Below are positions 10,132 to 28,706 of a stretch of 57,432 nt of DNA, one piece after another. Source of the DNA: a virus. Position 1 is the first letter of the stretch; every line of letters begins with the position of its first letter. Location of the stretch: IMG/VR virus record IMGVR_UViG_3300046787_000804, positions 1-57,432 of that record. The stretch is one strand, 5' to 3'. A model generated the notes under the pieces. That model saw nothing but the letters and a program-made list of their open reading frames with translations, made no database searches and had not been told where the DNA came from. The translations under genes were made by a program, and so were the position numbers.

Positions 10132-12072
10132 GTGTTGGAACACTATGACGGACTTGATGCCATCGCTGAAGCGTGGCGCGAGGGGCTCACCCCCGACCCA
10201 CTGTTGACAGTGTCTGAATGGGCAGATCAGTACCGAGTGCTATCGGGAAAGTCGGCCTCGGAGCCGGGCAAGTGGCGAACCAATCGCACGCCTTATCTCA
10301 AGGAAATCATGGACTGTCTCTCGCCGACGTCACCCGTCGAGCGGGTGGTGTTCATGAAAGGCGCGCAGGTCGGCGGCACGGAGTGCGGCAACAACTGGAT
10401 TGGCTATGTCATCCATTTGGCCCCTGGTCCCATGATGGCTGTTGCGCCGACGGTCGAGATGGCCAAGCGAAACTCCAAACAGCGAATTGATCCACTCATC
10501 GAAGAGAGCCCGACGCTCTCTGGCTTGATCGCCCCCGCAAGGGCGCGCGATTCAGGCAACACCATCCTGGGCAAAGAGTTCCGTGGTGGCGTGCTGGTGA
10601 TGACGGGCGCAAACAGCGCCGTGGGTCTGCGCTCGATGCCGGTGCGCTATTTGTTTCTGGATGAGGTTGATGGCTACCCGGGTGACGTTGAAGGAGAAGG
10701 TGATGCGATTGCATTGGCTGAGGCTCGAACCCGAACCTTTGCACGCAGAAAAATTTTCATCGTCTCGACGCCAACAATTTCTGGATCGTCGCGAATTGAG
10801 CGCGAGTACGAGCAAACAGACCAGCGACAGTTCATGGTCCCGTGCCCGCACTGCGCCCACGAACAAGTCTTGGCTTTCGAACAATTGATCTGGGAAAAAG
10901 GACTGCCCGAGACGGCGCACTACAAGTGCGAATCGTGCGAGCAGCCCATTTACGAATACCAAAAGACCGAGATGCTCGAGCGGGGACGGTGGCAGTCATC
11001 GATTCCGGATTACGTTGGCAAAACAGTGGGGTTTCACCTGTCCAGTCTGTACAGCCCTGTGGGCTGGCGCAGTTGGGCTGACATCGCTGCAGCCTGGGAA
11101 GCGGCGCAAGGATCTGCAACTGCCTTGAAAGCATTCAAAAACACAGAGCTGGGCGAGACCTGGGTCGAGCAAGGCGAAACCCCCGAATGGGAGCGTTTGC
11201 TGGAGCGCCGTGAGGACTACCGAATCGGCACCGTCCCACTGGGGTCGGCTTTGCTGTGCGCCGGGGTGGACGTTCAAAAGGACCGCATCGAGGTTTCGGT
11301 TTGGGCATTCGGTCGGGGCAAAGAGGCGTGGCTGGTTGAGCACCGTGTGCTGGCCGGTGACACCTCCCGCGATACGGTCTGGCAGCGGCTTCGTGAAATG
11401 CTCGATGAGTCCTGGACGCATGCGTCTGGGGTGCAGTTACGTTTGAGTCGCATCGGCCTGGATACAGGATATGCCACCCAAGAGGCCTATGCCTTCGTGC
11501 GCAAGATGCGTGACTCTCGGCTGCTACCCATGAAGGGTGTGGCCCGTGGTGCTGCACTTGTCGGGTTGCCGACCGCTGTGGACATGACTGTGGGCGGCAA
11601 GAAGCTGCGCCGGGGAGTTCGTGTCTATTCAGTTGTGGGTGGCATTGCCAAGCTGGAGTTCTACAACCATCTGCGCAAAACCATGGAAGTGACCGAGGAC
11701 GGTGAGATCCTGTATCCCGCTGGGTATGTCCACTTACCCAAGGTCGATGTCGAATTTGTGCAGCAGTTGTGCTCAGAGCAGTTGGTTACGCGCCGGGATC
11801 GCAATGGTTATCCGGTGCGTGAGTGGCAAAAGATCCGCGAACGCAACGAGGCACTTGATTGCTACGTTTATGCACGGGCAGCAGCGAGCCTCGCTGGTCT
11901 TGACCGATACGAGGAACGTCATTGGCGCGAATTGGAAAAACCGCTAGGTGTTACAGGGCCACCTGAAGACGCCCAATCAACCAAGCAAGAAGCCACCCCC
12001 AGCGGTGGCTTTGTTGTTTCTAAAGGACCACAACGCGGCAGGCGCTTAATTCGCAGCCGGTGGATGAACTGA
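10132..12072 (+). CDS. Phage terminase large subunit, GpA family
   Basis: A 646-aa packaging motor. The N-terminal ATPase has a Walker A-like loop (MKGAQVGGTECGNNW, residues 75-90) and Walker B YLFLDEVDG near residue 180. A zinc-finger-like CPHC...CESC segment lies around residues 240-270. The C-terminal nuclease starts with CAGVDVQKDRIEVSVWAFG, the RNase H-type first Asp. Length and layout match lambda gpA-like terminases. The start is GTG. The stop overlaps the gpW-like start as TGATG. Confidence 0.95.
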   Translation: MLEHYDGLDAIAEAWREGLTPDPLLTVSEWADQYRVLSGKSASEPGKWRTNRTPYLKEIMDCLSPTSPVERVVFMKGAQVGGTECGNNWIGYVIHLAPGPMMAVAPTVEMAKRNSKQRIDPLIEESPTLSGLIAPARARDSGNTILGKEFRGGVLVMTGANSAVGLRSMPVRYLFLDEVDGYPGDVEGEGDAIALAEARTRTFARRKIFIVSTPTISGSSRIEREYEQTDQRQFMVPCPHCAHEQVLAFEQLIWEKGLPETAHYKCESCEQPIYEYQKTEMLERGRWQSSIPDYVGKTVGFHLSSLYSPVGWRSWADIAAAWEAAQGSATALKAFKNTELGETWVEQGETPEWERLLERREDYRIGTVPLGSALLCAGVDVQKDRIEVSVWAFGRGKEAWLVEHRVLAGDTSRDTVWQRLREMLDESWTHASGVQLRLSRIGLDTGYATQEAYAFVRKMRDSRLLPMKGVARGAALVGLPTAVDMTVGGKKLRRGVRVYSVVGGIAKLEFYNHLRKTMEVTEDGEILYPAGYVHLPKVDVEFVQQLCSEQLVTRRDRNGYPVREWQKIRERNEALDCYVYARAAASLAGLDRYEERHWRELEKPLGVTGPPEDAQSTKQEATPSGGFVVSKGPQRGRRLIRSRWMN

Positions 12073-12281
12073 TGACGACCTATACCCAAGAGCATGCACA
12101 AGCGCTGCGAGAAGCCATTGCCAGTGGTGAACATCGGGTGACGTACGACGGTAAAACGATCGAGTACCGAACTGTTTCCGATCTCAAACTGGCCTTGGCA
12201 GAGGTAGAAGCCGCGCTGGCATCCGACAGCGGAAAAACCAAGACGCGTCAAATCCGGGTCACCACAGCCAAAGGGTTCTGA
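12072..12281 (+). CDS. Head completion protein, gpW-like
   Basis: A 69-aa protein whose SGEHRVTYDGKTIEYRTVSD followed by LKLALAEVEAAL closely follows the lambda gpW pattern of a beta hairpin and two helices. gpW-like proteins close the portal vertex after packaging and form the tail attachment site. Its position between terminase and portal is the lambda order. ATG 12072 overlaps the terminase stop. Confidence 0.85.
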   Translation: MTTYTQEHAQALREAIASGEHRVTYDGKTIEYRTVSDLKLALAEVEAALASDSGKTKTRQIRVTTAKGF

Positions 12282-12282
12282 C

Positions 12283-13785
12283 ATGGCCTTTTGGAAAAAA
12301 CTCACGGCCTATGTGGGCTGGAATTCCGTTCACGAGGCTGCTGGCTCAGGTCGCAGGTCTCGTGTTTGGAATCCTGGTGATCCGGGAGCTGTCTCGGCGA
12401 TGCTGGCCACGGGCAACCAACTGCGGGTCAAGTCTCGGGATCTGGTGCGCAGAAACGCCTGGGCGGCCAACGCGGTCGACAGCTTTGTCTCTAATGCCAT
12501 CGGCACGGGGATCAAACCGCAATCCTTGGTGGATGACCCCAAGTTCCGGGAGAAGGTTCATGCGCTGTGGTGGCAGTGGGTGGAGGAAGCAGATAGCAAC
12601 AACCTCACCGATTTCTACGGCCTGCAGTCACTTGCATGTCGGGCGATGGTCGAGGGTGGCGAATGCCTGATCCGCATCCGCAATCGACGGCAGGAAGATG
12701 GCCTGAGTGTGCCGATCCAGTTGCAGATTCTGGAGCCCGAGCACCTGCCTTTGAGCCTGAACACGATCAGTGCATCGGGCAACCCGATCCGTAGCGGCAT
12801 CGAGTTTGATGCCCTTGGGCGTCGGGTTGCCTACCACCTGTACCGCGAGCATCCGGGTGACCCGAGCTTGACGGTCAATGGCAACGATCTGGTGCCGGTC
12901 CCAGCTGAGGAGATCGTCCACCTGTTTCGCCCCCTGCGACCTGGACAGATTCGCGGCGAGCCATGGCTGTCGCGGGCCTTGGTCAAGCTCAATGAGCTCG
13001 ATCAGTACGACGACGCAGAGTTGGTTCGTAAAAAGACGGCGGCCATGTTCGCGGGATTCATCACGCGTCAATCACCCGAAGACCAACTGCTGGGCGAAGG
13101 TGAAGCGGATGAAATGGGCGTGGCCATGACGGGTTTGGAGCCGGGCACCTTGCAAGTTCTGGAGCCTGGTGAGGACGTGAAGTTCTCCGATCCTGCGGAT
13201 GTAGGTGGCTCGTATGCGGAATTCCTGCGGGTGCAGTTTCGCGCAGTCGCTGTGGCCATGGGCATCACCTACGAGCAGTTGACCGGTGATCTGTCGGGCG
13301 TGAATTACTCGTCGATCCGTGCCGGTCTCCTGGAGTTCCGTCGCCGATGTGAAGCCATCCAGCATGGCGTGATCGTGCATCAGATGTGCCGCCCGATCTG
13401 GCGTGCATGGATGGATGCCGCAGTGCTCAGTGGCGCACTGACAGCGACAGGTTATGCCAAGAGCCGTCAGTCCGCCAGAGCGTGGCAGGCGGTGAAGTGG
13501 ATCCCGCAAGGCTGGCAGTGGGTGGATCCCGAGAAGGAGTTCAAAGCCCTGCAGCTGGCCATTCGCTCCGGCTTGATGAGCCGCTCTGAGGCCATCTCGT
13601 CCTTTGGCTACGACGCGGAAACGATCGACAAAGAGATTGCGGCAGATAACGCCAGGGCAGATGCATTGGGGCTCGTTCTTGATACGGACCCAAGGCAAGT
13701 GGCCCGCAATGGTGCAACCAACTCGGCTGCTCCCTCGCTCCCTCCTGACTCACCAAGCGCGTCCTTGGTGGATCAGCAAACCTGA
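12283..13785 (+). CDS. Phage portal protein, lambda gpB family
   Basis: A 500-aa protein with the lambda-type portal features: RRNAWAANAVDSFVSNAIGTG near the N-terminus, IQLQILEPEHLP in the middle, HLFRPLRPGQIRGEPWL, and YEQLTGDLSGVNYSSIRAGL near residue 330. It forms the dodecameric DNA channel at the capsid vertex. It starts 1 nt after gpW. Confidence 0.95.
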   Translation: MAFWKKLTAYVGWNSVHEAAGSGRRSRVWNPGDPGAVSAMLATGNQLRVKSRDLVRRNAWAANAVDSFVSNAIGTGIKPQSLVDDPKFREKVHALWWQWVEEADSNNLTDFYGLQSLACRAMVEGGECLIRIRNRRQEDGLSVPIQLQILEPEHLPLSLNTISASGNPIRSGIEFDALGRRVAYHLYREHPGDPSLTVNGNDLVPVPAEEIVHLFRPLRPGQIRGEPWLSRALVKLNELDQYDDAELVRKKTAAMFAGFITRQSPEDQLLGEGEADEMGVAMTGLEPGTLQVLEPGEDVKFSDPADVGGSYAEFLRVQFRAVAVAMGITYEQLTGDLSGVNYSSIRAGLLEFRRRCEAIQHGVIVHQMCRPIWRAWMDAAVLSGALTATGYAKSRQSARAWQAVKWIPQGWQWVDPEKEFKALQLAIRSGLMSRSEAISSFGYDAETIDKEIAADNARADALGLVLDTDPRQVARNGATNSAAPSLPPDSPSASLVDQQT

Positions 13786-22830: not shown

Positions 22831-24657
22831 ATGACCCTCAAGACCCGGCTGGATGAAGCTGTGGGAACGATCGAGGGGGATGCCCAACTGCTCCATGAGA
22901 TCGTCCACGGGGATGATCAGACGACCGTAACCACGGAAGGTGGCCAGGTCAAGAGCGTGGCCAACGTCATTCATGGGGTTCAAACCCAACTTGATGCGTC
23001 CCGCCAAGAACTGACCAATCAGGTGGCCACGGCCACTCAACTAGCGAGCAATGCTGCGCAATCAGCCAGCAGTGCATCGACATCGGCCACGACAGCCAGC
23101 ACCAAGGCTAGTGCGGCCAGTGATTCTGCAACCAGTGCGGCAAGTTCCGCGACGACTGCGGCGACTTCGGCAACCACTGCCAGTACCAAGGCCAGTGATG
23201 CCAGCAGCAGCAAAACGGCGGCGGCCACCTCGGCAACCAATGCGGCCACCAGTGCCACCAATGCAGCGAGCTCGGCAACAGCGGCGGCAGCTTCGTCCAC
23301 CACCGCGACGCAAAAGGCCAGCGATGCGGCTAACAGTGCCAGTTCGGCGGCAGCCTCCGCCACCACGGCCAGCAGCAAGGCAACCGATGCACAGACCGCT
23401 TTAGCATCTGCGCAGTCCCAGGCTTCATTGGCTTCCGACTGGGCGCAGAAAACCGCTGCAACGGTCGACGGCACCGGGTATTCGGCGAAGTATTGGGCGG
23501 ACCGGGCGGCCAATTCGGCGGCAGTGGTCACCACCAATACGGTGATTCCGGCAGATGTGTTTGCTGGGGATAGCGTCAAGACGGATTTCACCCTCAGCCA
23601 TCCCGTGGCTTATCCGGGTGCTGTGTTGGTGACTGTGGCCGGAGTTCCTCAAGCACCAATAGATTCGTACTCGGTCCCCGCCATTACAACCCTGCGCTTT
23701 GTGTCCGCACCGGCGACAGGTGTGGGCATCAGTGTTCGATATCTCGACAAGGAAGCTCAATCTGGCGCAGCGTCTGCACAGGAGTGGGCCACCAAAACCG
23801 GCGGTGTGGTCTCCGGCTCGACGGAGTATTCGGCCAAGTACCACGCCCAGGCAGCTGCTGCGAGTGCCACTTCGGCATCGTCGTCTGCGACGGCGGCATC
23901 TGGTAGTGCGACATCGGCTGCAGGATCTGCAACCACGGCTGCGACCAAGGCTGCCGATGCAGGGACATCGGCCACCAATGCGGCAACTTCAGCAACCACA
24001 GCCAGCACCAAAGCCAGCGAAGCTGCGACATCGGCGACCAATGCTGCGAACAGTGCCAGCGGTGCATCTGCCTCTGCAACAACAGCAACGGCTAAGGCCA
24101 CCAATGCAAACAGCAGCGCAACAGCTGCAGCAAGTTCGGCCAGCAGTGCATCTGGTAGTGCCATTCTGGCGCAGGATTGGGCGACCAAAACGACAGCCCC
24201 GCCCAGTCGATCTCTGCTTCAGCATCAACCGCCACGCAAAAGGCAACGGATGCGGCGGCCAGTGCGACGGCTGCGGCTGGTTCAGCAAGTACCGCCTCGA
24301 CCAAAGCCTCGGATGCCGCAACGTCGGCGACCAATGCAGCGACTTCTGCCAGTACCGCCAGTACGCAGGCGACTGCAGCGGCAACCTCAGCCACGAATGC
24401 GGCGAGCTCCGCTACTGCAGCGGCAGGTTCGGCCACCACCGCAAGTGGCAAAGCGACGGACGCAGCCAACAGTGCCACGGCGGCAGCAACCTCGGCCAGC
24501 AACGCGAGCACGAGTGCCGCCAACGCGGCAACTTCGGCAGCTGGGTCAGCCACAACGGCAACGACTAAAGCTGGGGATGCAACGGCGAGTGCTACTGCAG
24601 CGGCCAATTCGGCGACTGCGGCGGCAGGCAGTGCCACAAGCGCAGCAGGGTCGTTGA
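22831..24657 (+). CDS. Tail fibre, N-terminal part (frame lost near 24200)
   Basis: The first ~450 residues are a genuine fibre: an N-terminal attachment region (MTLKTRLDEAVGTIEGDAQL), then long Ala/Ser/Thr repeats of the form SATxAxTKAxDA expected to form a trimeric coil. These are interrupted by a 140-residue globular module (ASDWAQKT to EYSAKYHAQ). After about base 24195 this frame becomes Pro/Arg-rich and no longer fibre-like, while the -1 frame resumes the repeat. The stop at 24657 is therefore probably not the true end. One added C in the CCCC run at 24197-24200 would restore an 888-aa gene ending at 25496. Confidence 0.8.
   Translation: MTLKTRLDEAVGTIEGDAQLLHEIVHGDDQTTVTTEGGQVKSVANVIHGVQTQLDASRQELTNQVATATQLASNAAQSASSASTSATTASTKASAASDSATSAASSATTAATSATTASTKASDASSSKTAAATSATNAATSATNAASSATAAAASSTTATQKASDAANSASSAAASATTASSKATDAQTALASAQSQASLASDWAQKTAATVDGTGYSAKYWADRAANSAAVVTTNTVIPADVFAGDSVKTDFTLSHPVAYPGAVLVTVAGVPQAPIDSYSVPAITTLRFVSAPATGVGISVRYLDKEAQSGAASAQEWATKTGGVVSGSTEYSAKYHAQAAAASATSASSSATAASGSATSAAGSATTAATKAADAGTSATNAATSATTASTKASEAATSATNAANSASGASASATTATAKATNANSSATAAASSASSASGSAILAQDWATKTTAPPSRSLLQHQPPRKRQRMRRPVRRLRLVQQVPPRPKPRMPQRRRPMQRLLPVPPVRRRLQRQPQPRMRRAPLLQRQVRPPPQVAKRRTQPTVPRRQQPRPATRARVPPTRQLRQLGQPQRQRLKLGMQRRVLLQRPIRRLRRQAVPQAQQGR
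23431..23850 (+). repeat. Fibre module repeat, copy 1
   Basis: A 420-bp block encoding DWAQKT, then VIPADVFAGDSVKTDFTLS, VTVAGVPQAP and SVRYLDKEAQSG to EYSAKYHAQ. It aligns without gaps to 24684-25103 (offset 1253 bp), though many bases differ. Each copy is flanked by Ala/Ser/Thr coil. Confidence 0.8.
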
Positions 24658-25496
24658 CGGCATCACAGGCGCAAGCCGCTCTGGCTTCTGATTGGGCACA
24701 AAAGACCACCGGTACGGTCGACGGCAGCGGTTACTCAGCCAAATACTGGGCAGGGCAAGCGGCAGGATCGGCAGCAGCGGTGACGGCCAATACGGTCATT
24801 CCCGCCGATGTGTTCACCGGCGATGGCGTGAAGACGGATTTCACAATCAGTCGGCCAGTCGGTTATCCCGGTGCATTGATGGTGACAGTTGCCGGGGTGC
24901 CTCAAGCGCCCTTGGATGCCTACACCACACCAGCCACGACGACGCTCAGATTCAGCTCGGCTCCTACCAGTGGCGTCGTGATCAGCGTGCGCTACCTGGA
25001 CAAGGAAGCGCAGTCTGGCGCAGCCGCAGCCGAGGAATGGGCGAACAAGACGTCGGGACCTGTTTCTGGCTCGACCGAGTATTCGGCCAAGTACTACGCA
25101 CAGTCCATTGCCGCCAATGCGGCGACTGCCAGTCAGCAAGCAACCAGTGCTGCGAATTCGGCTACGGCGGCGGCTGGCAGTGCCACCGCATCGGCGAACT
25201 CTGCGACGGCTTCAGCAGCATCGGCCACCCAAGCGCAGAGCTACATGAGTCAGGCGCAGGGGTATGCCGCTGCAGCGGGTGGCTCTAACGTCGCTCCACA
25301 GACCTTTACCGGAAATGGTTCGGCTACTGACTTCAGTTTGAGCACTGCAGCGTCCAGCGTCCATAAATTGATCGTGACGGTCAACTACGTGGTGCAGGAC
25401 TCACTCGATGCCTACGTCCTGGTCAATTCCGGGGCGACTTTGCGATTCACATCGGCACCAACCGCCAGCGCGCGGATTGTGGTGCGTTACATCTAA
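24177..25496 (+). CDS. Tail fibre, C-terminal part (after the frameshift)
   Basis: The fibre continues in this frame from about 24195: Ala/Ser/Thr coil, then a second copy of the 140-residue module (ASDWAQKTTGTVDGSGYSAK onward), another short coil, and a final beta domain ending RFTSAPTASARIVVRYI. It gives about 433 residues that belong to the same polypeptide as the upstream part. No ribosome site or credible start is seen at the frame's beginning (TTG 24177), so separate translation is unlikely. The Phe/Val-rich end domain resembles the half-modules inside the fibre. Confidence 0.8.
   Translation: MGDQNDSPAQSISASASTATQKATDAAASATAAAGSASTASTKASDAATSATNAATSASTASTQATAAATSATNAASSATAAAGSATTASGKATDAANSATAAATSASNASTSAANAATSAAGSATTATTKAGDATASATAAANSATAAAGSATSAAGSLTASQAQAALASDWAQKTTGTVDGSGYSAKYWAGQAAGSAAAVTANTVIPADVFTGDGVKTDFTISRPVGYPGALMVTVAGVPQAPLDAYTTPATTTLRFSSAPTSGVVISVRYLDKEAQSGAAAAEEWANKTSGPVSGSTEYSAKYYAQSIAANAATASQQATSAANSATAAAGSATASANSATASAASATQAQSYMSQAQGYAAAAGGSNVAPQTFTGNGSATDFSLSTAASSVHKLIVTVNYVVQDSLDAYVLVNSGATLRFTSAPTASARIVVRYI
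24684..25103 (+). repeat. Fibre module repeat, copy 2
   Basis: The second, diverged copy of the 420-bp fibre module (gapless against 23431-23850). A shorter relative of the module ends the fibre (DFSLSTAASSVHKLIVTVNY to VVRYI). Confidence 0.8.
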
Positions 25497-25508: not shown

Positions 25509-26063
25509 ATGGCGATTACGCGCATCCCCAAAGCGGGGCTGGATGATGCCTTGCAGAACGAAATCAATGGCAAGTTGGACAAGGTCGGTGGAACGATGAC
25601 GGGCTCCATCACGATGACCAATGGAGCCTTGTTCAAGAGCAGCGTCACAAGTGATGACGCTCGAAATACGGGCTACAAGATGGCCGACGGGCAGGACATC
25701 GGAGAGATGAATCGCTCGAGTCAGTACTACGACGATCGGGCCACCAATTGCAATGGATATCTGCCTAATGGCAACTGCGCCAGTAACGGGTACTGGAACC
25801 CCCCCAATGGCAACTGGTGGACCTGGGGCGTCAGTGGCGTGCCGACAGGAAACTGTGCCAACTGGGGCAGCTATGACGGTGCAGGCGGCACCTCTCAGGT
25901 CTTCAACGCGGTGTCGGTCGGATTCAACTACGACGGGTACTACGAAGCCGCCAATGAGATCGGTGGTTCTGAATACCACCGTTGGTACCGCAACTGCAAC
26001 TGTGGATCGTTCAACTGCCGCACCAATTGCAATTGCAACTGCGCTTGTTGCGGCTGCTGCTGA
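25509..26063 (+). CDS. Short fibre-tip protein with Asn/Cys-rich C-terminus
   Basis: A 184-aa protein, 12 nt after the fibre gene with an AGGAGA site. Residues 1-45 look like a fibre attachment and repeat start (KLDKVGGTMTGSITMTNGAL). Residues 75-125 are Asn/Gly/Trp-rich with Cys81, Cys90 and Cys116 in N-C pairs (NCNGYLPNGNC, TGNCANW). The last 22 residues hold ten Cys (163, 165, 170, 174, 176, 178, 180, 181, 183, 184), most following Asn. I recognise no family. I infer a virion tip protein and a substrate for the modifying enzymes encoded next; a metal-binding or disulfide-bonded tip is the main alternative. Confidence 0.75.
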   Translation: MAITRIPKAGLDDALQNEINGKLDKVGGTMTGSITMTNGALFKSSVTSDDARNTGYKMADGQDIGEMNRSSQYYDDRATNCNGYLPNGNCASNGYWNPPNGNWWTWGVSGVPTGNCANWGSYDGAGGTSQVFNAVSVGFNYDGYYEAANEIGGSEYHRWYRNCNCGSFNCRTNCNCNCACCGCC

Positions 26064-26072
26064 GGAGACGCG

Positions 26073-26906
26073 ATGAAGGTCTATATCACCCGTCCCCCGG
26101 CCTATGCGAGCTCGCCAGATCACGTGGTTCGTGTCCTGGTCGATGCGCCAAAGCAACGCGTAGGCGTGGAGATGTGCATTGTTTTTTCACCCAACCCCAG
26201 CGAGCCAGTGTCAGATGATGAGAGTGTTGTGCAAAGCGGTGACAAGTTCTACAAGGTCATCGCTGCCAGCGAGTTTGACTATGAGCTGCTCAAAAGAAGT
26301 ACGGGGTGGGCGGATCGTCAAGCCTGGCATCTGACATTCCGTTGGGATGTCAGATCGTTCACTGATCCGATCCCGCTCTACACCTATTCCATGGCGACCA
26401 AGATGTCGGCTCCGGAATTGTCACGTACGACTTACCAAAACAATCTGTCAGTGGGCTTTGTGGTCCCGTTCTCGGACTCGGCCTTTGAAGACTGTGCTGT
26501 GACCGTGAACATCAACCCTGATGTGAACAAAGGCGATTGTGTGGTGCAGGGTGTCGACGCTTCGGAAATCGTACGTACCGATTATTCGGCGAGTGCCCAG
26601 GTACGGGAGTTGATCCTTTTGCCTGGTGTCCAGATATCAGCGCCAACGAGCTGTACACCTGACGGCCAGGTCAACGTCCAAGTGCAAGTGCTCGATGCGA
26701 ATGACATGCCTATTGAGCACGATGCTGAAATCTTTCTTGAGGCGGTCAATGGCTACCTTCCAAAGACCCGCATCAAAACAGTCAACGGCCAGGCAAGTGT
26801 CCCTTTCATGGCCTTGGGCCTTGTGGCAGGAGATTCAGCACGGGTCAAAGCCGGTTTCAAATACTTCAGTGGTGCTTCTGATGTCTCCATCCAGATCCAT
26901 GACTAA
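26073..26906 (+). CDS. Fibre-associated protein with C-terminal Ig-like domain
   Basis: A 277-aa protein of unknown family. The N-terminal two thirds are mixed alpha/beta with several aromatic residues. The final ~85 residues (ISAPTSCTPDGQVNVQVQVL, then DANDMPIEHDAEIFLEAVNG) look like a bacterial Ig-like (Big_1-type) domain. It starts 9 nt after the Cys-rich tip gene and overlaps the first oxygenase-like gene by 8 nt. Ig-like domains are common on phage surface proteins, so it may be a virion component or a scaffold for modification. Confidence 0.6.
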   Translation: MKVYITRPPAYASSPDHVVRVLVDAPKQRVGVEMCIVFSPNPSEPVSDDESVVQSGDKFYKVIAASEFDYELLKRSTGWADRQAWHLTFRWDVRSFTDPIPLYTYSMATKMSAPELSRTTYQNNLSVGFVVPFSDSAFEDCAVTVNINPDVNKGDCVVQGVDASEIVRTDYSASAQVRELILLPGVQISAPTSCTPDGQVNVQVQVLDANDMPIEHDAEIFLEAVNGYLPKTRIKTVNGQASVPFMALGLVAGDSARVKAGFKYFSGASDVSIQIHD

Positions 26907-27507
26907 GGAGCTGTTTGGAGCAAGGGTATATGCGGGTCTCCATCCATTTCCAGATGACGTGATGCTGGAGATGCGCAAACGGGCGCTGGCCATACACCAG
27001 AGCATTAATCCTCATGGCATGCCATGGTCTCGATGCACACGGGAGAGTTTGCATGTCGCCGAACCATTTCAGCAGGTTTCGGAATTGATCGAGCAGGTGG
27101 TCGAGACTGAGTACGGATGCAGTGTGAGCCACCTGACTGGACGAGAAGTGGTGATACAGAGCGGGCAATGCCTGCCGCTGCACTGTGAGGACACCGATCT
27201 GTCAGCGGTATTCGTGCTGAGTAATGAAGCCAGGGCGAATCCTGAGCGCAGTGATTACTCCGGCGCATTCGTTTTGGTCAATCCGAGTGGAGCGTTTGGA
27301 TTCAAGCGCCTGCCATGGGAGGGGCTGAGATCGGAGCTGATTTATCCGACAGCAGGAATGTTGTTGATTTTCCCGAGCTACCTGGCTCACCACACTCACC
27401 CCTACAACGCACAGGAGCCAGCGGTTGAGTTGCACTTTGAACTCAACGTGGTCGATAACCATGCCCATCAACGTTTACGACAACCCAGTTTCCCCCGAAC
27501 TCTGTGA
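26899..27507 (+). CDS. 2OG-Fe(II) oxygenase-like protein A
   Basis: A 202-aa protein with a double-stranded beta-helix pattern. Candidate iron ligands are His95 and Glu97 in LPLHCEDTDLSAVFVLS and His164 in LIFPSYLAHHTHPYN; the surrounding IYPTAGMLLIFPSYLAH strongly resembles TIGR02466-type oxygenases. The usual Arg that binds 2-oxoglutarate after the distal His is not obvious, so activity is less certain than for the next gene. The start overlaps the previous stop by 8 nt; no strong ribosome site is visible, suggesting translational coupling. Confidence 0.65.
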   Translation: MTKELFGARVYAGLHPFPDDVMLEMRKRALAIHQSINPHGMPWSRCTRESLHVAEPFQQVSELIEQVVETEYGCSVSHLTGREVVIQSGQCLPLHCEDTDLSAVFVLSNEARANPERSDYSGAFVLVNPSGAFGFKRLPWEGLRSELIYPTAGMLLIFPSYLAHHTHPYNAQEPAVELHFELNVVDNHAHQRLRQPSFPRTL

Positions 27508-28048
27508 AGCAACGCGAGCTTGGCTTTTGTCGCAAAGTCCCATCTTCGGGTGGCGCGCACATGCAAACGCACCCGGTGTTTTCTGGCATCGCAATTTCGT
27601 GTTACCTGGAACGCATCAACACCACTATGACGATATCGCTTGGAATTCTGAGCTGAGTTACGAGGCCTTTTGTGCCTTTGAGAGTCCCTTAGCGCGGGTT
27701 GCCGAGATCGTTCGCCAGCAGTTCTTTGATGGCGAGGCCTTCACTCGGATCTGGGCCAACTTTCAGTCATTTGGTGACGAGTCGGCATTTCACAGAGACT
27801 TCCCTGTTCAGTACGCACGGACTGCCCGTACAGCCGTTTGGTATCCAGTGATGAACTGGGAGAGGGATTGGGGTGGTGATTTCATCACCCTCTCCGATGA
27901 TGGAGAGGTCGATGCCTGCACATTGATTAAGCCCAATCGACTGGTGGTGTTTAACGGGACGCAAACGCATGCGGCTCGTCCGATTTCCCGCTACTGCAGC
28001 GAACTGCGCATTGCAGTTTCATTCGGATGTGAGGTGATCAATGCTTGA
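27461..28048 (+). CDS. 2OG-Fe(II) oxygenase B (prolyl-hydroxylase-like)
   Basis: A 195-aa protein with the complete facial triad of the 2-oxoglutarate/Fe(II) family: His111-x-Asp113 in SAFHRDFPV, His170 in GTQTHAARP, and Arg183 in SELRIAVSFG for the 2OG carboxylate. The beta-helix strands (TAVWYPVMNWERDWGGDFIT, NRLVVFNG) are plain. Such enzymes hydroxylate Pro, Asn, Asp or other side chains. It overlaps the preceding gene by 47 nt and the next by 8 nt. The substrate is unknown; the adjacent Asn-rich tip protein is the obvious candidate. Confidence 0.82.
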   Translation: MPINVYDNPVSPELCEATRAWLLSQSPIFGWRAHANAPGVFWHRNFVLPGTHQHHYDDIAWNSELSYEAFCAFESPLARVAEIVRQQFFDGEAFTRIWANFQSFGDESAFHRDFPVQYARTARTAVWYPVMNWERDWGGDFITLSDDGEVDACTLIKPNRLVVFNGTQTHAARPISRYCSELRIAVSFGCEVINA

Positions 28049-28706
28049 GCATCTATGGAGCACTCCGGTTCTTCATGAGCAATCGCCCTTCACCATGGGC
28101 CAGCTTGAGGAGTTAAAGAAATTCACCACTGAGCGATTTCGCAATCACAAAGCCCATCCGCCTCGGCATGCATTGCCTGATGTGCCCGTGAAGTTACGAA
28201 CCCAGCTGAATCTGTTCTTGCCTGATCATGAGATGCATGCTCCGGCAGTCTGGTTTGAATTCAAACGCTGGGTGGATAGAACCTACCGCGCCTATCTGAA
28301 TGAGGCCCATGGAGTTAGGAATGTGAATGAGCTTGAAGTGCTCGCTCGATGCATCCCTGTTTGCTACCAAAAGGGCATGCGTGCGCAGCCTCATTACCAC
28401 CACACGGGCGATCATGTGCTGTGTCTGTATTTGGATTGCGGCAACGACCGAATACCTCCTGAGGACCGTGATTGGACGGTCGGAGATGGTGAATTGCTTC
28501 TACAAGATCCCCGCCCCATGGCGGGGTTTCCTTTTTGGGAGAAGGTTCGCTACATCGAAACATTCCCCGGTCTGGTCGTATTGCACCCATCGCGGGTATG
28601 GCATGAGACCAACCCCTTCAATGCCCCAAGCGGTCAACGGACCTTATTGGTCGTGACCCTGCGTGTGGCGTCCCATAACTACACCGAGCTGTACACCCGG
28701 CTATGA
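28041..28706 (+). CDS. 2OG-Fe(II) oxygenase-like protein C
   Basis: A 221-aa protein with a metal-ligand cluster (QPHYHHTGDHVLCLYLDC; His118, His120/121, Asp124), distal His188 in LHPSRVWHETNPF, and Arg200 (GQRTLLVVTLRV). The segment FPGLVVLHPSRVWHE corresponds to the distal-His strand of the 2OG oxygenase fold. Which of His118-His121 and Asp124 bind iron cannot be decided by eye. It is the third oxygenase-like gene in a row and overlaps the previous one by 8 nt. Confidence 0.65.
   Translation: MLEHLWSTPVLHEQSPFTMGQLEELKKFTTERFRNHKAHPPRHALPDVPVKLRTQLNLFLPDHEMHAPAVWFEFKRWVDRTYRAYLNEAHGVRNVNELEVLARCIPVCYQKGMRAQPHYHHTGDHVLCLYLDCGNDRIPPEDRDWTVGDGELLLQDPRPMAGFPFWEKVRYIETFPGLVVLHPSRVWHETNPFNAPSGQRTLLVVTLRVASHNYTELYTRL

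Follow-up and report, generated by a model that had tools for sequence, protein, structure and literature searches.

The DNA analysed here, a phage record from IMG/VR, is 57,432 bp long and is referred to as the window. We found in it a tail module whose genes run in the order fibre shaft, fibre tip, orf2, three oxygenase-like genes, a 67-aa ORF, a radical SAM/SPASM gene and a DUF1833 minor tail gene (Table 1). From orf2 onwards, neighbouring genes share 1 to 47 bases or are separated by only a few, in an operon-like manner.

Table 1 Features of the fibre-tip region in the window.
Feature	Position	Strand	Remarks
Fibre shaft gene, Ala/Ser/Thr-rich repeats	22831..25496	+	PHROG tail fiber matches; two frames: 22831-24657, 24177-25496
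Fibre-tip protein, 184 aa	25509..26063	+	Proposed maturation substrate
Stretch with three upstream Asn-Cys dipeptides (Cys 81, 90, 116)	25746..25856	+	
C-terminal Asn-Cys array, residues 162-184	25992..26060	+	N173, C174, N175, C176 and C178 invariant in 50 homologues
orf2, 277 aa, C-terminal Ig/intimin-like domain	26073..26906	+	Between tip and radical SAM gene in 78/110 dereplicated loci
2-oxoglutarate/Fe(II) oxygenase-like protein 1	26899..27507	+	PF13759-like, below curated cut-off
2-oxoglutarate/Fe(II) oxygenase-like protein 2	27461..28048	+	PF13640-like; weak NCBIfam FlmC similarity
2-oxoglutarate/Fe(II) oxygenase-like protein 3	28041..28706	+	PF13759-like, below curated cut-off
orf6, 67 aa	28719..28922	+	Stop codon overlaps radical SAM start by one base
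Radical SAM/SPASM enzyme, 453 aa	28922..30283	+	CxxxCxxC 74/78/81, GGEP, seven-Cys SPASM (309, 328, 368, 371, 377, 381, 393)

The C-terminus of the fibre-tip protein, translated from 25509-26063, reads RNCNCGSFNCRTNCNCNCACCGCC. Cysteines occur at positions 81, 90, 116, 163, 165, 170, 174, 176, 178, 180, 181, 183 and 184, with 10 of them in the final 22 residues. Asn precedes Cys 163, 165, 170, 174, 176 and 178 (the Asn before Cys 163 lies just outside the last 22 residues) and also Cys 81, 90 and 116. With Cys making up 0.95% of the window's other proteins, the binomial probability of at least 10 Cys in 22 residues is approximately 3.5e−15. The translation thus reproduces the Cys and Asn-Cys counts of the initial annotation, and the probability agrees with its view that the pattern is too regular for chance; the span that it gave, 25989-26063, does hold the array, with the start now corrected to Asn162 (25992-26060, and to 26063 with the stop codon). 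In an AlphaFold prediction made with 50 homologues the tip protein had a mean pLDDT of 64 and the tail 35-38, the unmodified tail being predicted as disordered. A sequence search of the PDB with the tip profile gave no match, and tblastn searches of INPHARED phages, with the tip and with orf2 as queries, gave none either.

The naming of this protein as a fibre tip, also taken from the initial annotation, is upheld by locus L115, in which one polypeptide begins like the N-terminus of the window shaft (41% identity over 123 aa) and ends like the window tip (51% over 158 aa). This fusion of shaft N-terminus and NC tip places the tip at the far end of the fibre. The intact shaft is a single ORF of 908-909 aa in near relatives (L082-L084). 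It should be noted that the window shaft is split over overlapping frames near 24,180-24,660, where the alignment with L082-L084 has a break of approximately 33 bases; this frameshift is either an assembly error or a natural mutation in the repeat. In another locus (L314) the NC tail is carried on a collagen-like (PQG/PTG) shaft.

We found at least 70 homologous tips in IMG/VR; the counts from our IMG/VR scans are samples, and the figures hold among the matches listed. An alignment of 50 tips, the means by which the earlier reading had proposed to judge the N-C spacing, had a mean column identity of 27%. Against this background, N173, C174, N175, C176 and C178 are the same in all 50 tips, with almost no variation at N162-C165, N169-C170 and C180. 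Of the upstream Asn-Cys dipeptides, the first two (Cys 81 and 90) are retained in many homologues and the third (Cys 116) is more often lost. The stretch NCNCGxxNCxxNCNCNC is encoded by at least 53 distinct DNA versions, in which AAC/AAT and TGC/TGT are freely exchanged; as a pairwise mean, 6 of the 13 fixed codons differ synonymously, with both amino acids retained and third codon positions varying freely. Such codon drift with the amino acids kept rules out an origin of the array as a DNA microsatellite. These data show that the Asn-Cys tail is under selection at the protein level. The end of a fibre is normally its most variable part, whereas in the NC tips it is the most constant. Over dereplicated loci among the matches listed, the 90 residues that precede the array fall into ten families with no mutual BLAST similarity, and the Asn-Cys tail is therefore borne by about ten dissimilar protein bodies.

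The enzyme encoded downstream has the hallmarks of a radical SAM/SPASM protein. Among 34 diverse members of its family, C74, C78, C81 and G119-P122 (GGEP) are invariant, as are C309, G323, C328, C368, C371, C377, C381 and C393, which satisfy the SPASM pattern Cx(9-15)Gx4C - Cx2Cx5Cx3C - C; the SPASM model TIGR04085 scored 32.9 bits, above its cut-off of 27. No conserved Cys lies between 309 and 328 in these members, and the residue after Cys328 is a nearly invariant Gln. By profile, the nearest solved structures were 8vpo, anSME (4k36-4k39) and CteB. The best NCBIfam equivalog was the ranthipeptide maturase PapB (60.5 bits vs a cut-off of 340), the SCIFF maturase model gave 30 bits vs 425, and the enzyme fell below the cut-off of every NCBIfam equivalog; it matched PHROG 1802 with E 3e−59. 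No Pfam match to an RRE-type leader-binding domain was found at the locus. The auxiliary clusters of anSME are fully ligated, via C255, C261, C276 and C330; in CteB, auxiliary cluster I has an open site, as has been suggested for AlbA from its seven Cys (PMC6231123). The SPASM enzymes of this broad group catalyse many reactions, and function cannot be read from similarity networks (PMC6231123). With its seven SPASM Cys, the window enzyme could have an open site on its auxiliary cluster I. Since its scores lie below the equivalog cut-offs with PapB as the best, we favour an enzyme that would work like a ranthipeptide maturase, without filing it as one.

We examined the link between array and enzyme from both sides, calling radical SAM genes with a profile built in this analysis. 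An enzyme-blind scan took IMG/VR DNA coding for NCNCNCxC and required an ORF of at least 90 aa, a C-terminal array and 3.5 kb of downstream DNA. Among the matches listed, 51 out of 51 C-terminal NC ORFs had a member of one radical SAM/SPASM family within 3 kb on the same strand, and the exceptions among the remaining NCNCNCxC pattern matches were short or repeat-derived reading frames. The control pattern NSNSNSxS gave a radical SAM match at 0 of 86 loci (IMG/VR, among the matches listed). In the reverse, enzyme-first direction, limited to radical SAM relatives with enough upstream DNA, an NC ORF, often with a tip body unlike that of the window, lay within 5 kb upstream in 55 of 56 loci, and at 5.3 kb in the 56th (IMG/VR, among the matches listed). 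When strong radical SAM loci were dereplicated, an array was present within 6 kb upstream in the sense direction in 90/96 loci vs 6/96 in antisense (among the matches listed). A scan of bacterial genomes made the array visible in 58 of 79 radical SAM loci, with the pair found in Limnohabitans, Burkholderia, Paraburkholderia, Polynucleobacter, Thalassobacter, Magnetospirillum, Bradyrhizobium and others.

Because the array and one radical SAM/SPASM family co-occur almost without exception, a reading of the tail as an enzymatic peptide core, one of those offered by the initial annotation, is strongly favoured, and the enzyme very probably acts on the array. Homologues that keep the enzymes and lose the tail were named there as counter-evidence; close relatives retain the tail, and only more diverged radical SAM loci were without an NC array, several of these having another Cys repeat. 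Two individual loci should also be mentioned. On the chromosome of Polynucleobacter necessarius (L341) the radical SAM gene lies in pieces over several reading frames, in what looks like a decaying prophage copy, and a contig of a MAG filed under Bacteroidetes (L268) has nearly the tip and enzyme of the window (83% radical SAM identity); it may be mis-binned, as the hosts of near relatives are Comamonadaceae.

The genes between tip and enzyme vary, as judged from 110 dereplicated loci among the matches listed. In seven of the 110 there is no gene between the NC protein and the radical SAM gene, which makes array and enzyme the core and the remainder accessory. The predicted structure of orf2 had a pLDDT of 92, and Foldseek identified the Ig/intimin-like C-terminal domain, with the whole fold matched only in unnamed phage proteins; orf2 is probably a structural or assembly protein. 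Oxygenases of several unrelated 2-oxoglutarate families lie between tip and radical SAM gene in 64 of the 110 loci (about 60%). Those of the window reach 24-27 bits with PF13759/PF13640 (cut-off 27), two His are invariant in 25 members, and the second matches the FlmC family at E 2.5e−12 (47 bits vs a cut-off of 240). The residue x in xC was Asn at a frequency of 0.72 in loci with oxygenases vs 0.65 in those without, giving no clear link. A few loci have a fatty-acid-desaturase-like membrane protein (PF00487) in this interval (L091 13609-14367 and relatives, L032 and L059), some with extra 2-oxoglutarate oxygenases, and in L125 an ORF at 11516-12547 looks ATP-grasp-like by eye and had no Pfam match.

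The array protein ends within 10 residues of the array in 94 of the 110 loci. A long extension follows in fifteen (about 14%), often a Hint domain whose first Cys comes directly after the array, and in thirteen of the fifteen cases the locus has no oxygenase. The Hint model PF05203 matched above its cut-off in gp28, the tip protein of the cultured Achromobacter phage JWF (E 3e−12), and in L135 (E 3.8e−11); no Hint domain was found in the window tip protein. In JWF (NCNCDCNCNCSC|FPAGTMVLMADG) and in the likewise cultured Achromobacter phage 2-1 the Hint Cys directly follows the array, and the annotation of their enzymes reads sulfatase maturase or radical SAM protein (in JWF, an anaerobic sulfatase-maturating enzyme). 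Extensions of another kind, starting with ICTKL/ICTEL and not Hint, were found in L096 (9992-10735), L140 (3321-4391) and L169; that of L096 had no Pfam match.

We therefore propose, as on balance probable, that the array is the core substrate of a phage radical SAM/SPASM maturase and becomes a cross-linked fibre tip. The enzyme encoded a few genes downstream would act on the array after translation, abstracting hydrogen from its residues, most likely at the beta-carbon of Asn (or Asp). These residues would then form non-alpha thioethers with the sulphur of Cys close by, and the flexible tail would become a stable, cross-linked knot at the fibre end. The accessory 2-oxoglutarate oxygenases may hydroxylate residues of the same tip, and in other phages the Hint domain may cut itself off after the tail and so expose the array. 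Once finished, the tip would make the virion's first contact with the host surface and may serve in adsorption.

That the product on the array is a thioether we regard as an evenly balanced question. It is favoured by the seven-Cys SPASM domain and by the N-x-x-C spacing: in N-C-N-C, all Cys but the first have an x residue (Asn) at −3. Known examples are the Cbeta thioether from Asn20 to Cys23 in NxxcA and the six Cys-Asp thioethers of freyrasin (PMC8326336). In 103 distinct tails among the matches listed, Asn or Asp occupied x1, x2 and x3 in 98, 94 and 90% and the last x in 57%. Other residues, Arg, Tyr, Ser, Thr, Gly and Cys among them, stood at the last x in 29 tails vs one at the position before; Asn, Asp or Ala are retained at every array position but the last, and it is the last x that has no Cys three residues on. 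This looser last x would fit an acceptor N-terminal to Cys at a spacing of three, but it could also be plain C-terminal fraying, and some of the odd residues merely precede the Hint Cys. The isolated Cys 81, 116, 170 and 174 have Asn at −1 and none at −3, so N-x-x-C is not a general rule, and many arrays have Ala where Asn would be expected, which leaves some of their Cys without a possible Asn partner. In distant relatives there are Cys-x-x-Cys or Ser/Gly-Cys repeats without Asn.

Compared with known systems, the pair resembles the ranthipeptides (SCIFF/CteA-CteB, freyrasin PapA-PapB and NxxcA-NxxcB), in which a SPASM radical SAM enzyme with a seven-Cys SPASM lies beside a substrate with a C-terminal Cys repeat; in NxxcA the bond joins Asn to the Cys three residues on, the same spacing as in N-C-N-C. 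However, the phage substrate is a virion protein of 70-600 aa and not a small secreted peptide, Cys occupies every second residue, no RRE was found, the partners are oxygenases and Hint domains, and the enzyme scores far below the equivalog cut-offs. QhpD, among the better NCBIfam matches of the window enzyme (E 7e−14), is a radical SAM/SPASM enzyme that puts Cys-Asp/Glu thioethers into quinohemoprotein amine dehydrogenase, likewise a structural protein and not a peptide product; its target, however, is one bacterial enzyme subunit with no repeat array and outside any virion. The Cys-every-fifth (CefA/CefB; NF038107) and CXXX-repeat (TIGR04115) RiPPs also pair a maturase with a fixed-spacing Cys repeat, but these are bacterial peptides of different spacing, and the window enzyme and its relatives reached 25-122 bits with the two models (cut-offs 350-600). 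General RiPP traits (a short precursor peptide with a leader, RRE, protease and export genes) are not seen here, the substrate being a virion protein and the intervening genes orf2, oxygenases and tail genes. PHROG 1802, a radical SAM domain-containing protein, has no assigned function, and a link to Cys arrays is not noted there. Tips of the phage T4 gp37 type are C-terminal fibre tips with a regular side-chain repeat, HxH and iron; the NC tip differs in having Cys and a dedicated enzyme, and no sequence relation between the two was found.

Several other explanations were weighed. The enzyme might act on the array by another reaction, such as a C-C or C-O cross-link, dehydrogenation of Asn or inter-chain cross-links in a trimer. 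The reactions of the SPASM group are varied (PMC6231123) and in jumbo-phage loci tandem radical SAM genes lie beside one NC protein, but the constant Cys and the seven-Cys SPASM suggest sulphur chemistry, and we consider this unlikely. Epimerisation of every second array residue, giving an alternating D/L strand and possibly a membrane-inserting beta-helix as in polytheonamide, appears improbable: it would suit the strict period of two, the Asn-rich tail, the 1,3 pattern in which PoyD acts (PMC8326336) and a weak profile match to the EpeE/YydG epimerase structures, but the constant residue is Cys, and the period of three or four in diverged systems is incompatible with a D/L helix. Furthermore, proteusin epimerases of the PoyD type have the radical SAM cluster only, without SPASM, plus a C-terminal RRE (PMC8326336), whereas the window enzyme has a SPASM domain. 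It is very improbable that the Cys are oxidised to formylglycine, which would give an aldehyde-rich tip able to bond covalently with host amines. The anSME structures among the nearest (4k36-4k39) and the annotation of the JWF enzyme point that way; against this, the eighth SPASM Cys of anSME (C261) is unmatched in the window enzyme, with no Cys between 309 and 328, and there is no sulfatase CxPxR motif. Cys328 is moreover followed by Gln, where anSME has an Asp after C276 (Asp277, which we take to be catalytic).

The remaining explanations take the enzyme away from the array. Fe or Zn is bound through HxH motifs in other phage tips, and from this analogy the initial annotation had considered metal binding; the Cys of the array would then bind metal or form disulfides at the tip (in a trimer, as Cys3 layers stacked on one another and holding Zn, Fe or Fe-S), with the radical SAM enzyme acting elsewhere on the tip protein or on orf2. 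Alternating residues of a beta-strand do face one side, and Cys repeats can bind metal. However, the Asn-Cys tail contains no HxH motif, neither kind of bonding by itself needs a radical SAM enzyme in every locus, and the enzyme tracks the Cys array and neither the bodies, which are dissimilar, nor orf2, which is missing in about 30% of loci; we hold this to be unlikely. That NC protein and enzyme adjoin merely as members of the tail module, by genome hitch-hiking, would agree with the finding of all loci in tail regions, but the association holds across dissimilar tip bodies, jumbo phages and prophages of several proteobacterial classes and survives dereplication, and the control repeats of the same collection show no association (0/86, among the matches listed), which leaves it a highly improbable account.

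Cys repeats with other spacings were also found next to more distantly related radical SAM genes of phages and prophages; we give these as leads. A CSYCSYCTYC repeat was found near a radical SAM gene in Parasutterella loci and a CSYCSYCTCACSDCSC repeat in Paramagnetospirillum loci. In Erwinia phage Asesino and Salmonella phage SPAsTU (L347 2441-3161, L350 2100-3130), small proteins with ends of the CSGGCSG/CSGGCSGSC type are encoded shortly upstream of two radical SAM genes, and in L164, L225 and L238 (minus strand) several different radical SAM genes in a row come after the gene of a 67-79-aa NC protein whose end reads THIFYDDYSTACNCNCNCNC. In Campylobacter phage CP220 the tail-region protein gp140 (L355 2161-3765) has six 21-nt repeats coding for NYCTCDC; its gene precedes a radical SAM gene by about 2 kb and adjoins a T4 gp63-like tail-fibre attachment gene. 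Campylobacter phages of the CP220 kind have up to six unexplained radical SAM genes; for the six of phage IBB_35, called very rare in phages, guesses such as DNA methylation have been made (PMC3322345). Records named Bacteriophage sp. from the human gut (L351, L352 and L353), with SCIFF-like peptides (TSCQSACKTSC) near a radical SAM gene, were rejected as phage cases, as they resemble ordinary bacterial SCIFF loci and are probably bacterial DNA.

It is possible, though we would stop short of calling it probable, that there is a general class of virus maturation in which phage radical SAM enzymes, oxygenases and self-cleaving domains convert Cys-repeat fibre ends into adhesive tips that are covalently cross-linked and may also be hydroxylated or chelate metal. 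The class would, with the same reservation, span the NC tips of siphoviruses and prophages, the NYCTCDC repeats of Campylobacter phages, the CSGG repeats of Erwinia and Salmonella jumbo phages and the multi-enzyme versions of jumbo phages. A tip of hydroxy-Asn and Cys might imitate a siderophore and so dock on iron receptors. A literature search gave no report of radical SAM action on phage tails, within a coverage of non-subscription papers and few preprints, so that absence is not proof. We know of no earlier case of a virus using radical enzymes to modify chemically the tip with which it contacts its host.

If the proposal is true, this would be the first virus known to do so, and judging from the loci compared here many phages probably rebuild their fibre tips chemically after synthesis. 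Phage radical SAM genes, an acknowledged puzzle of which the six in IBB_35 are an example, would gain a testable function, for which the cultured Achromobacter phages JWF and 2-1 are available test systems, and the loci would supply peptide engineering with many repeat substrates together with their matching enzymes. A cross-linked tip would also explain why the end of the fibre is here its most conserved part instead of its most variable.
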